From: Clostridiaceae bacterium
GTDB lineage: Bacteria; Bacillota; Clostridia; Acetivibrionales; Acetivibrionaceae
Assembly (NCBI GenBank): GCA_012519925.1
Contig: JAAYPF010000195.1
Span: 1 to 37,357, forward strand
Length of the DNA stretch: 37,357 nucleotides
Direction of reading: 5' to 3'
Shown: positions 7,231-32,682 of the stretch, piece by piece
Layout: each line of letters begins with the position of its first letter
Position numbering within the stretch: position 1 is the first letter of the stretch
The notes under the pieces: model-generated
Told to the model about the DNA's origin: nothing
Databases searched by the model: none
Seen by the model: the letters and a program-made list of their open reading frames with translations, nothing else
Position numbers and translations under genes: made by a program

Positions 7231-7445
7231 TTTTCTGCCTCCTGTTCGTTTATATATTCTACGATATCTCCGATATCACATTTTAAATACTTGCATATTC
7301 TACCTAAAACATCCATACTGACATTCTGGTCTTTGCTGAGCCTCGATAGCGTTGTAGGTGTTATGGATACAGCATCCCTGAGTGTGACTTTATTTATCTT
7401 TTTATCGATTAGTAGTTTCCACAATTTGTTATAACTAAATGCCAT
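7227..7445 (-). CDS. XRE/Cro-type helix-turn-helix regulator of the restriction operon
   Basis: This 72-residue protein is nearly all helix-turn-helix. The pattern LRDAVSITPTTLSRLSKDQNV matches the Cro/C1 fold: the second and third helices flank the turn at SITPTTLSRL. It also has the common C-terminal part LGRICKYLKCDIGDIVEYI. An in-frame GTG at 7454 exists, but GGAGG lies 8 nt before the ATG at 7445, which is therefore chosen. It overlaps hsdR by ATGA and is the first gene of the operon. Single small XRE proteins ahead of restriction genes usually act as controllers that delay or limit expression. Two direct repeats in its promoter support autoregulation, which is an inference. Confidence 0.9.
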   Translation of the reverse strand: MAFSYNKLWKLLIDKKINKVTLRDAVSITPTTLSRLSKDQNVSMDVLGRICKYLKCDIGDIVEYINEQEAEK

Positions 7446-7474
7446 GAAGCTCACCTCCGTTAACTTTCATATTT

Positions 7475-7525
7475 ACATTATCATACATTTTTATATTTTT
7501 CAATATTAGAGGTACATTTTTATAT
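7475..7525 (-). promoter_or_regulatory. Promoter and probable operator of the XRE-hsdRMS operon
   Basis: On the minus strand a TTGAAA box (7498-7503) is separated by 17 bases from TAATGT (7475-7480), about 30 bases before the XRE start codon. A 13-bp sequence, ATATAAAAATGTA on the minus strand, occurs twice in direct orientation at 7484-7496 and 7513-7525, 29 bp apart. One copy fills the promoter spacer and the other sits just upstream of the -35 box. This is the layout expected for repressor binding by the XRE protein. Binding is inferred. Confidence 0.55.
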
Positions 7526-7604
7526 ATCTAAAGTATGCCAAAAAGATTTCTATCAAAAAAATAATGAAATATTGTGGTAAATAATTAATCTTCTGAATGG
7601 TAAC

Positions 7605-7728
7605 GCGACACATAGTGTCGCCATAATCCCGAGCATAGCGAGGCAACAGCAGTCAAAGCAAAGGTAACAATTATTTGAATACAAAAAATTAGGCTAAACC
7701 TACTTGAACAGGAGAGCGCCTCCTGTTC
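7605..7728. other. Two strong hairpins in the spacer upstream of the XRE gene
   Basis: A 7-bp perfect inverted repeat, GCGACAC with GTGTCGC, lies at 7605-7611 and 7615-7621 with a 3-base loop. A second, 9-bp perfect repeat, GAACAGGAG with CTCCTGTTC, lies at 7706-7714 and 7720-7728 with a 5-base loop. Between them is a purine-rich stretch with recurring CGAG and GGTAAC words. On the plus strand these hairpins precede the terminator at 7776-7791, so a plus-strand small RNA of about 200 nt is possible. On the minus strand they would lie in a long 5' leader of the XRE gene. No protein gene is visible here. Confidence 0.35.
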
Positions 7729-7752
7729 CAGGGAATGAGGCGAGGAAAACGC

Positions 7753-7823
7753 AATTTAATAACGAGCAAAAAAAGGGAGCCGAATGGCTCCATTTTGTAA
7801 TTTTTTTGCGATGTTATTAAATT
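7753..7823. terminator. Bidirectional terminator inside a 71-bp nested palindrome
   Basis: Three arms pair in nested order: 11 bp (7753-7763 with 7813-7823), 9 bp (7766-7774 with 7801-7809, a run of A facing a run of T) and 6 bp (GGAGCC 7776-7781 with GGCTCC 7786-7791, loop GAAT). Read on the minus strand, the inner stem is followed by C and seven T residues, a very good intrinsic terminator. On the plus strand it is followed by a T-rich stretch. The outer 11-bp arm is more than a terminator needs and may mark the edge of an element. Confidence 0.7.
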
Positions 7824-8450
7824 CTCTTGGAAAGAAGGGCAGACTTATCCTAGCAAAAGCTAGTAAGTCTGCACCGTTTTATTGTATCCAGTTCCGAGGG
7901 TGACTCGGCTGAGGTATCCACTTACGATTACCACGCTTACATTCGTCCTAGACGCTAGTTCAGTCGTGGGTCGCATCCCTTGTATAGTATTTCAACTATA
8001 CGTTATCTACATTGTCGGTTCACGGTCAACTACTCGACTCTGGGAAATACGTTAAATCCCAGCATACACACCCTTTCGGTCGCTAACGACTATTCATAGC
8101 GATATGATTAAATTGCACTCAATATGTGTAAGTATCCTCCACATTGTGGACTAGTTCTTACGATAGTGTATCATAGTATTATAATATGCTACAATTCTCA
8201 ATCTCAACCGTTGAGCAATCTTCACGAAAACTTCATCTGTTCGCTAAGTAGCTATAAACCGATACAGGAGCCGTGCAATTGGCTCTGCCCGCTATCGTCT
8301 CTCCCCCGTGCTTTATTATTTGAGTTGGTACATAACACTAAAATCCAACTTACGGGCGGTCTGTGAGTAGTGCCAGATTGTCCGTCCGAGGCTTTTTGTA
8401 CTTGGAGCCTACCCTATTCGTTTTTTATTTTTTAATGGGAACGAATGTTA
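7824..8450 (-). ncRNA. Candidate large structured non-coding RNA, family not identified
   Basis: There is no credible protein gene in this stretch, but short inverted repeats follow each other almost without gaps. Plus-strand positions include 7839-7872 (9+5 bp), 7894-7908 (5 bp), 7982-8001 (7 bp), 8040-8062 (6 bp), 8079-8090 (4 bp), 8128-8161 (5+5 bp), 8203-8215, 8260-8297 (5+5 bp), 8324-8349 and 8389-8410. The minus strand is the likelier sense strand. There, one hairpin closes with a GAAA tetraloop (ACCGAAAGGG, near 8070-8080), unpaired parts are A-rich, and the run ends at a strong terminator (7776-7791). Some minus-strand phrases near 7880-8030 remind me of group II intron domain I, but no domain V was found. 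Large ornate RNAs such as ROOL, GOLLD or OLE are other possibilities. Strand and family are uncertain. Confidence 0.5.
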
Positions 8451-8484
8451 TCGAAACCCTGTAATATTCAATTAGTATAAATAT

Positions 8485-8540
8485 ACACTTTTATATAGGG
8501 GAATATAAGAAATTCGTGTTCTACCCCTGCATAAAAGTGT
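8485..8540. repeat. Long imperfect hairpin at the outer edge of the structured region
   Basis: A 10-bp perfect arm (ACACTTTTAT 8485-8494 with ATAAAAGTGT 8531-8540) encloses a second 5-bp GC-rich arm (AGGGG 8497-8501 with CCCCT 8524-8528) and a 22-base loop. It lies just upstream, on the minus strand, of the candidate large RNA, and immediately downstream of the terminator at 8551-8590. It could be the 5' closing helix of that RNA or a separate regulatory hairpin. There is no T run after it. Confidence 0.5.
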
Positions 8541-8550
8541 CTTAAGGAAT

Positions 8551-8590
8551 AAAAAAGCCTCCTGCACCCAATAAAAACAAGGCAGGAAGC
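8551..8590 (-). terminator. Intrinsic terminator of a possible short transcript
   Basis: On the minus strand GCTTCCTGC (8590-8582) pairs with GCAGGAGGC (8565-8557), giving 9 bp with one G-T pair, followed by six T residues (8556-8551). About 30 bases upstream lies another perfect hairpin, GCTCCC with GGGAGC (8618-8634). A TATAAT box on the minus strand sits at 8643-8648, with no clear -35. Together these could define a small RNA of about 85 nt (8551-8636). The transcript is inferred; the terminator itself is well formed. Confidence 0.65.
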
Positions 8591-8743
8591 CTTTTATATT
8601 CCAACCATTGAAATGTTGCTCCCTTCACGGGAGCGTTTATATATTATAGTACAAAATATCAAAATATATATTTTTATTTTACTCTAAACATAATATTAAA
8701 ATATATAATTTTATTCTGGTATTAAATTGAGTTTGCGACACGA

Positions 8744-8783
8744 CAAAAAAACAAAGCCCCGAAACGTTGTGTTTTCGGGACTT
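8744..8783 (-). terminator. rpsI: Terminator of the rplM-rpsI operon
   Basis: On the minus strand AAGTCCCGAAA (8783-8773) pairs with TTTCGGGGCTT (8764-8754), 11 bp with one G-T pair, closed by an 8-base loop. It is followed by TGTTTTTTTG. It begins 16 bases after the rpsI stop codon and is the expected end of the ribosomal protein transcript. Confidence 0.9.
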
Positions 8784-8798
8784 TTGTAAAATTTGCAA

Positions 8799-9191
8799 TT
8801 ATCTCTTTGAGAACTGTGGTGCTCTTCTTGCTTTCTTGAGACCGTATTTCTTTCTTTCCTTCATTCTTGGATCTCTTGTGAGGAAACCTGCCTTTTTTAA
8901 TACAGGTCTTAACTCCTCATCCGCCTTTAGAAGAGCTCTTGAAATACCGTGTCTTATAGCTCCAGCTTGACCAGTGTAACCTCCACCTATAACTTTGCAG
9001 ATTACATCAAACTTGCTACCTGTATCTGTAAGTACTAATGGCTGTTTAACTATAACTTTCAAAGTCTCCAAACCAAAATAGTTATCAAGATCTCTATCAT
9101 TTATAATAACTTTTCCTTCTCCAGGAACAAGTCTAACTCTTGCAATAGATTTTTTTCTTCTTCCAGTTCCGTAATACTGTACCTTTGACAT
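8799..9191 (-). CDS. rpsI: Ribosomal protein uS9
   Basis: The protein is a component of the 30S head, with a C-terminal tail reaching toward the P-site tRNA. The 130 residues are normal for the family. They include the N-terminal [16 protein letters not shown] motif and the basic C-terminal end RRAPQFSKR, whose last Arg contacts tRNA in known structures. The ATG has GGAGG upstream. It follows rplM by 23 bp and is the last gene before the terminator at 8744-8783. Confidence 0.99.
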
Positions 9192-32530: not shown

Positions 32531-32682
32531 AAAAATAAACAAATTCATGCACAGTTCATATACATCGCAAAATGTACAGTGACTTGTCGCCCGGTTTCTT
32601 AGAATCGGACATTCTCCACAAAAGTTACCTACTTTAAGTAGCAATCTCCTGTTTCATCGTATGCCACGTCACAACATTCAAT

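Follow-up and report, generated by a model that had tools for sequence, protein, structure and literature searches.

What fills the stretch between rpsI and a type I restriction operon on a contig of a Clostridiaceae bacterium, where about 630 nt fold densely and carry no recognisable gene? We analysed the whole 37,357-nt stretch of DNA (the window), in which the structured body occupies positions 7829-8457, with rpsI on one side and an HTH/type I restriction operon on the other. With a probability of roughly 0.6, the body encodes a large, structured non-coding RNA, most likely read on the plus strand, and belongs to the optional cargo of a defence hotspot that lies behind rpsI. The reading that fits best makes it a large non-coding RNA of a new and rare family. 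Bacterial RNAs of such size and structure are few, and what ROOL, GOLLD and OLE do is described as poorly understood (PMC12286853).

The HTH-hsdRMS operon extends from 7454 to 1209 on the minus strand. The earlier note placed the RNA directly upstream of this defence operon; the two do adjoin, but about 370 bases intervene between the body and the HTH gene (7454-7227), and these carry conserved hairpins of their own. Direct repeats at 7484-7532, outside the body, are candidate HTH operators. No tRNA or tmRNA gene was found in the window. Downstream of hsdS lies an ORF for an ORC-CDC6-like ATPase (100-1185), for which there was no PADLOC match at E 0.001. Feature coordinates are collected in Table 1.

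A nucleotide search for homologues, as the earlier note had proposed, found one relative. Among 391 genomes of the class, the only other match of real length was on contig C150 (CALCRE010000150.1) of an uncultured Clostridia MAG, G105, from a family other than that of the window. At E <= 0.005, 54/391 genomes matched, and the genome of the window (G000) and G105 were kept; the dropped matches were short (91 bases or fewer), fell for the most part in the query's AT-rich first 100 bases, and were set aside without piece-by-piece inspection. A lax search (E up to 10) matched 58/58 genomes, and among the matches listed, pieces outside the window under 60 bases were dropped by size, with one exception (G000:C115:671-691). 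There, 21/21 bases equal window 8323-8343 (L036 671-691, E 0.004), probably by chance; the match sits in a 217-aa ORF, transporter-like by eye.

Table 1. Features of the locus in window coordinates; plus is the favoured strand for the RNA body and its helices
Feature	Position	Strand	Observation
RNA body	7829..8457	+	homologue L069:332-1056, compensatory changes, no codon phase, G-U asymmetry; ends provisional
P1, two-part 5' hairpin	7837..7875	+	single base differs in G105
P2, hairpin CAG-CCGAG/CUCGG-CUG	7889..7911	+	single loop base differs in G105
P3	7925..7973	+	arms replaced between genomes; predicted in both in shifted register; uncounted
P4, hairpin	7982..8001	+	compensatory pairs 3/7
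P5, predicted long-range helix	8014..8263	+	GUCGGU 8014-8019 with ACCGAU 8258-8263; invariant
P7, hairpin	8040..8062	+	compensatory pairs 4/6; loop length varies
P8, hairpin	8079..8103	+	compensatory pairs 1/7
P10, two-part stem	8128..8161	+	outer GUAAG/CUUAC becomes GUAUG/CAUAC in G105, 1 compensatory pair; inner stem arm at 8138-8142
Hypervariable stretch	8162..8257	+	shared structure not recognised; G105 about 85 nt longer
P11, inner hairpin	8267..8286	+	1 compensatory pair, one G-U/A-U change
P13, hairpin	8322..8351	+	outermost G-U pair on plus only
P14, 12-bp hairpin	8352..8385	+	three G-U pairs; z -3.94 plus, -1.24 minus
P15, hairpin	8389..8410	+	two G-U pairs
P16, long hairpin	8415..8447	+	four G-U pairs
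Second conserved non-coding element	7590..7810		between RNA body and HTH-hsdRMS operon
Separate leader	8478..8660	-	consensus z -10.8 minus, -7.5 plus (100 shuffles)
Leader TATAAT box	8648-8643	-	no -35 match in scan
Leader hairpin	8634-8618	-	fold
Leader long terminator-like hairpin	8602-8546	-	fold
Leader hairpin	8540-8485	-	fold
Terminator-like hairpin	8753..8784	-	behind rpsI
rpsI	8799..9191	-	chromosomal anchor of hotspot
HTH regulator	7454-7227	-	first gene of type I restriction operon
hsdR	7230-3970	-	type I restriction operon; hsdM and hsdS next

The body shows no coding signal. Its longest ORF has 80 aa; ORFs of at least 30 aa, compared with Pfam and NCBIfam (5/6 from the window, 3/10 from G105), gave matches that were all far under the cut-offs; and substitutions between the window and G105 over the first 480 nt show no preference among the three codon phases (46/49/46). 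On ORF lengths, family searches and phase-neutral substitutions together we reject a coding gene.

Window 7829-8457, free of coding signal, folds better than shuffled controls on both strands. For single-sequence folding of 7829-8456 the z-score is -3.26 on plus (0/200 shuffles as good) and -1.67 on minus (11/200); for G105 it is -3.59 and -3.02 respectively, with 0/200 shuffles as good on each strand. The consensus energy of the two sequences is -135.0 on plus (z -7.1, lower than every one of 200 column shuffles) and -123.9 on minus (z -5.2). These results bear out the dense hairpins, about ten in some 630 bases, and the non-coding status that had been described from the sequence, and the three two-part stems named there are all present in the window: 7839-7872 (P1), 8128-8161 (P10) and 8260-8297 (P11).

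Identity to G105 is uneven: 97% for 8258-8735, on the rpsI side, and 76% for 7824-8146, on the far side. Such a mosaic of identity along L069 327-1330 suggests that recombination between families has taken place inside the RNA locus. The 3' part is near-identical in the two genomes and shows almost no covariation. In the far part, identical blocks of up to 40 bases alternate with stems changed on both sides.

For hand-placed stems, 10/96 pairs are compensatory, 1 is changed on one side and 85 are unchanged; the ten are spread over five helices (P4, P7, P8, P10 and P11). The count leaves out P3, one alternative helix with one broken cell, and the outer stem of P11, and since the stems were chosen by hand, the lack of a broken pair among the 96 is partly by construction. 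A model of the core alone has 6/34 pairs doubly changed and 98.5% of its cells paired; six slid controls gave 0 doubly changed pairs, and 8/500 shuffles scored as high. An automatic fold of the plus strand has 11/131 doubly changed pairs, and automatic folds on another alignment have 15/137 on plus and 16/129 on minus. Over the whole body these last counts exceed all 100 shuffles: on plus, 15 compares with a shuffle mean of 5.4 and a maximum of 11, and on minus, 16 compares with a mean of 7.4 and a maximum of 15. The covariation energy term, however, lies within the shuffle range on both strands, and for the first part alone the counts do so too (plus 11, highest 13; minus 14, highest 17). Folding energy is the firmer result; covariation from two sequences is suggestive, not conclusive. 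Matches of the covariance model to G105 arise by construction. Taken together, the two sequences give good evidence for a conserved fold, short of a formal covariation test, in which double changes between the two families appear to have preserved the stems. Those compensatory changes and the consensus fold support the proposal, made earlier, of a large structured RNA outside the named families.

Hairpins look alike on both strands, and so the strand is decided by G-U pairs. G-U pairs that extend stems number 13 on plus versus 2 on minus in the window, and 12 versus 5 in G105, two counts that are not independent because much of them lies in the shared 3' part. The hairpin at 8352-8385 is complete on plus only. 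The segment 8303-8449 folds better than chance on plus only (z -2.43, versus +0.21 on minus), and the gap in consensus energy towards plus was equalled in 5/200 shuffles. The G-U asymmetry and the plus-only hairpin make it likely that the RNA is read to the right, away from the restriction genes. The body is therefore probably on the plus strand, and the minus-strand assignment of the earlier note is probably wrong, on the evidence of the G-U pairs, the folding of 8303-8449 and the consensus energy.

Transcription signals are less clear. No plus promoter-like site was found by the promoter scan in window 7500-8146, and a plus terminator-like site stands at 7776-7791, just upstream of the body. 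Behind the body there are plus terminator-like sites at 8579-8593 and 8617-8635, which recur in G105. On minus, terminator-like hairpins stand to both sides of the body. Among the promoter-like sites of the region, the one at 8207-8178 (11/12) scores best, and it lies within the body on the minus strand; such sites occur at chance level in the window region and in G105.

The same structured RNA could lie on the minus strand and end at the terminator-like site 7791-7776, which we consider unlikely. Such an RNA would have that strong promoter-like site within its body, the TATAAT box at 8648-8643 that is common to the leader copy on contig C119 (below), and a GAAA loop with a C-G closing pair. 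G105 adds two points: its raw folding energy is lower for the minus strand, and the outer stem of P11 (window 8260-8297) speaks for that strand as well, having one C-A break in G105 when read on plus and being absent from the predicted fold there. However, the promoter-like site lies in the hypervariable stretch, and its sequence is absent among the G105 minus sites listed; transcripts begun in the leader should be halted by hairpin 8602-8546; the G-U extensions of P13-P16 exist on plus only, and the minus-strand fold of 8303-8449 does not exceed chance; and for both the body and the consensus the z-scores given above are weaker on minus than on plus.

The body is flanked by two other conserved non-coding elements. 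On the rpsI side, hairpin 8546-8602, a strong one, is part of a minus-strand leader that is distinct from the RNA body. The leader has a second copy in its own genome, at G000:C119:257-512 (L037), which is 78% like window 8478-8735 and has the TATAAT box in common with it. The C119 copy precedes pieces with matches to DUF3991, which we take to be a family linked with mobile elements, and to AAA and RloB; the AAA and RloB pieces resemble AbiLi and AbiLii and are apparently broken. The sequence TGTCGCAAA occurs twice in G105 (L069 1327-1350), twice on C119 (L037 233-268) and once in the window (8732-8740), directly after the terminator, and is possibly a junction or integration scar. On the operon side, the second element is found in three genomes (window 7590-7810, L069 70-320, L002 1500-1700). 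It ends in a long hairpin, of which the arm sequence is replaced in G105 and the A-run/T-run form is kept.

Comparison of genomes gives the locus the character of a hotspot. In G105 the homologue is also behind rpsI and the 7600-7790 element comes next; the contig stops after this element, and any restriction operon of G105 would lie beyond its end. In G038, from the same order and another family, rpsI is followed by the 7600-7790 element and HTH-hsdR, without the leader and without the RNA. HsdR of G038 and of the window share 1030/1086 residues (95%), an identity that favours recent transfer. The RNA is absent from another genome with the same restriction operon behind rpsI, which points to optional cargo. 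In three related genomes (G002, G004 and G029) other genes directly follow rpsI, and relatives of these genes, judged by eye, lie on C119 of the genome of the window and near the G038 hotspot. We infer that C119 holds the opposite side of this hotspot, the two parts lying on separate contigs. The G038 hotspot also holds a YoeB-like toxin and an ordinary group II intron (L110 13290-15161), which lies downstream of hsdS, has an RT-maturase ORF and matches D1-D4 at E 5e-43, with D5 under the gathering score. The gene rpsI is reportedly a target of integrative elements in streptococci. No integrase, relaxase or Rep protein was recognised in the ORF lists and scanned proteins, which cover part of the ORFs of an incomplete hotspot.

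The gain and loss at this hotspot also fits an element that acts as DNA through single-stranded hairpins, for example the origin of transfer or of replication, or the recombination site, that a former mobile element left behind. Compensatory change would preserve DNA hairpins too, and a DUF3991 piece stands behind the second leader copy. We regard such an element as quite improbable, since no relaxase, Rep or integrase was recognised among the part of the ORFs scanned in the incomplete hotspot, no plasmid or phage matched, and the length, the invariant unpaired blocks and the G-U asymmetry fit an RNA better.

Equally improbable, in our judgement, is a role in control, either as a long cis-acting region for the restriction operon or as an RNA that regulates the leader in antisense. 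The body does adjoin the HTH-hsdRMS operon, in opposite orientation on the favoured strand. However, G038 keeps the operon and the 7600-7790 element without the RNA, the candidate HTH operator repeats (7484-7532) are away from the body, and the complexity of the body goes beyond the needs of such control.

A remnant of a group II intron (one lacking domain V had been suggested) or of another known ribozyme can hardly be what the body is: its size and density and the intron in the G038 hotspot speak for one, but Rfam, which finds the G038 intron at 5e-43 as a positive control, gave no D1-D4 or D5 match up to E 5 in either the window or G105, no RT was seen beside the body among the scanned window ORFs, and by blastn the body and the G038 stretch share only matches of at most 20 bases.

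Homo-oligomeric RNA particles are a mark of ROOL, GOLLD and OLE, and ROOL and GOLLD are carried by phages or prophages, often beside tRNA genes. At the gathering score, Rfam gave a sole match in the window, an unrelated and ordinary S10-Clostridia ribosomal protein leader at 32584-32665, so that the RNA matches none of its families. At E up to 5, none of the 16 lax matches in window 7400-8900 or the 12 in L069 280-1400 was credible, and the ROOL, GOLLD, OLE and raiA candidates named at the outset were not among them.

Likenesses to these RNAs are of a general kind. OLE, as the sources consulted describe it, is about 600 nt long, occurs in Gram-positive anaerobes and extremophiles and has nucleotides that are highly conserved; the body resembles it in this, without an Rfam match. 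Judged by the OLE neighbours known to us, we recognised no gene neighbourhood common to the two. The raiA motif (ModT), according to what we consulted, is likewise non-coding and structured, occurs in Bacillota and has been studied in a relative of Clostridium; here too the body has no Rfam match. Group II introns share a large fold and, in G038, the same hotspot, whereas the body has no D1-D4 or D5 match and no maturase among its scanned neighbours. ROOL, in the description available, shares with the body a length of about 600-700 nt, the lack of coding, an elaborate multi-helix fold and a link to mobile DNA, and GOLLD its large size with one conserved and one variable part (PMC12286853). Unlike ROOL, the body is matched neither by Rfam nor in the phage or plasmid sets or the viral pattern scans, and the window yielded no tRNA gene; the lack of an Rfam match and of a tRNA gene in the window separates it from GOLLD too, as does its length, which falls under the 800+ nt of many members. 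A phage or tRNA link of the ROOL/GOLLD kind was sought in a partly missing hotspot, with no phage match and no tRNA gene in the window. The body does show what defines large 'ornate' non-coding RNAs, namely hundreds of nucleotides, no coding and helices with apparent support from covariation, the last in two sequences only. In the literature searched, no description of the RNA was found, and PMC11706625 was not relevant. We call the RNA new because it is absent from Rfam and from that literature.

The RNA also appears to be rare in the samples searched. Its own genome has one copy. Distant blastn searches of phage and plasmid sets with the window and G105 as queries returned 0 records. In viral contigs, five of seven DNA patterns were without a match, and a protein scan confirmed no relative. 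Two viral matches were rejected, L070 inside an open ORF of 205 aa and L113 inside a 1146-aa ORF, where a model match at the motif is absent. A scan of genome contigs with one 20-mer gave three stretches, L071 being G105 and the other two, L072 and L073, being set aside inside ORFs of 195 aa and 433 aa respectively.

A covariance model of the core, R1, built in minus orientation, found only the own genome and G105 among overlapping samples of 147, 398 and 391 genomes. Its matches were G105 and G179 (E 0.4) in the first, the own genome and G620 (E 0.147) in the second, and the own genome, G105 and G361 (E 0.014) in the third; the weak ones were set aside, being inside ORFs of 344 aa (G179), 574 aa (G620) and 371 aa (G361). 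Distant relatives could be missed, because stricter filters on large samples lose weak matches.

If the preferred reading of a plus-strand RNA gene is right, the locus would be transcribed rightward as a single RNA of roughly 630-730 nt, whose dozen or so hairpins would make up a particle of several domains. The predicted, invariant long-range helix P5 would close its central domain. The minus-strand leader at 8478-8660 would stop transcripts from the rpsI side, so that they would not read through the RNA in antisense. A trans-acting structured RNA is most likely: the molecule, as a stable RNA by itself or within a ribonucleoprotein, may take part in conflicts of the host with mobile elements, as large ornate RNAs may. 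It is size, folding and carriage with mobile cargo that underlie the resemblance to ROOL and GOLLD, and a defence role is suggested by location only. A bolder proposal, which we hold to be rather improbable, is that this new class of ornate RNA is itself an agent of defence or counter-defence, an RNA-only cargo of the rpsI hotspot that is swapped between families and forms its particle during phage attack.

If this is a new large RNA, its presence in two of three otherwise matching hotspots would provide a natural plus/minus comparison for the roles of ornate RNAs, and comparing such hotspots would let one ask whether these RNAs serve phage defence.
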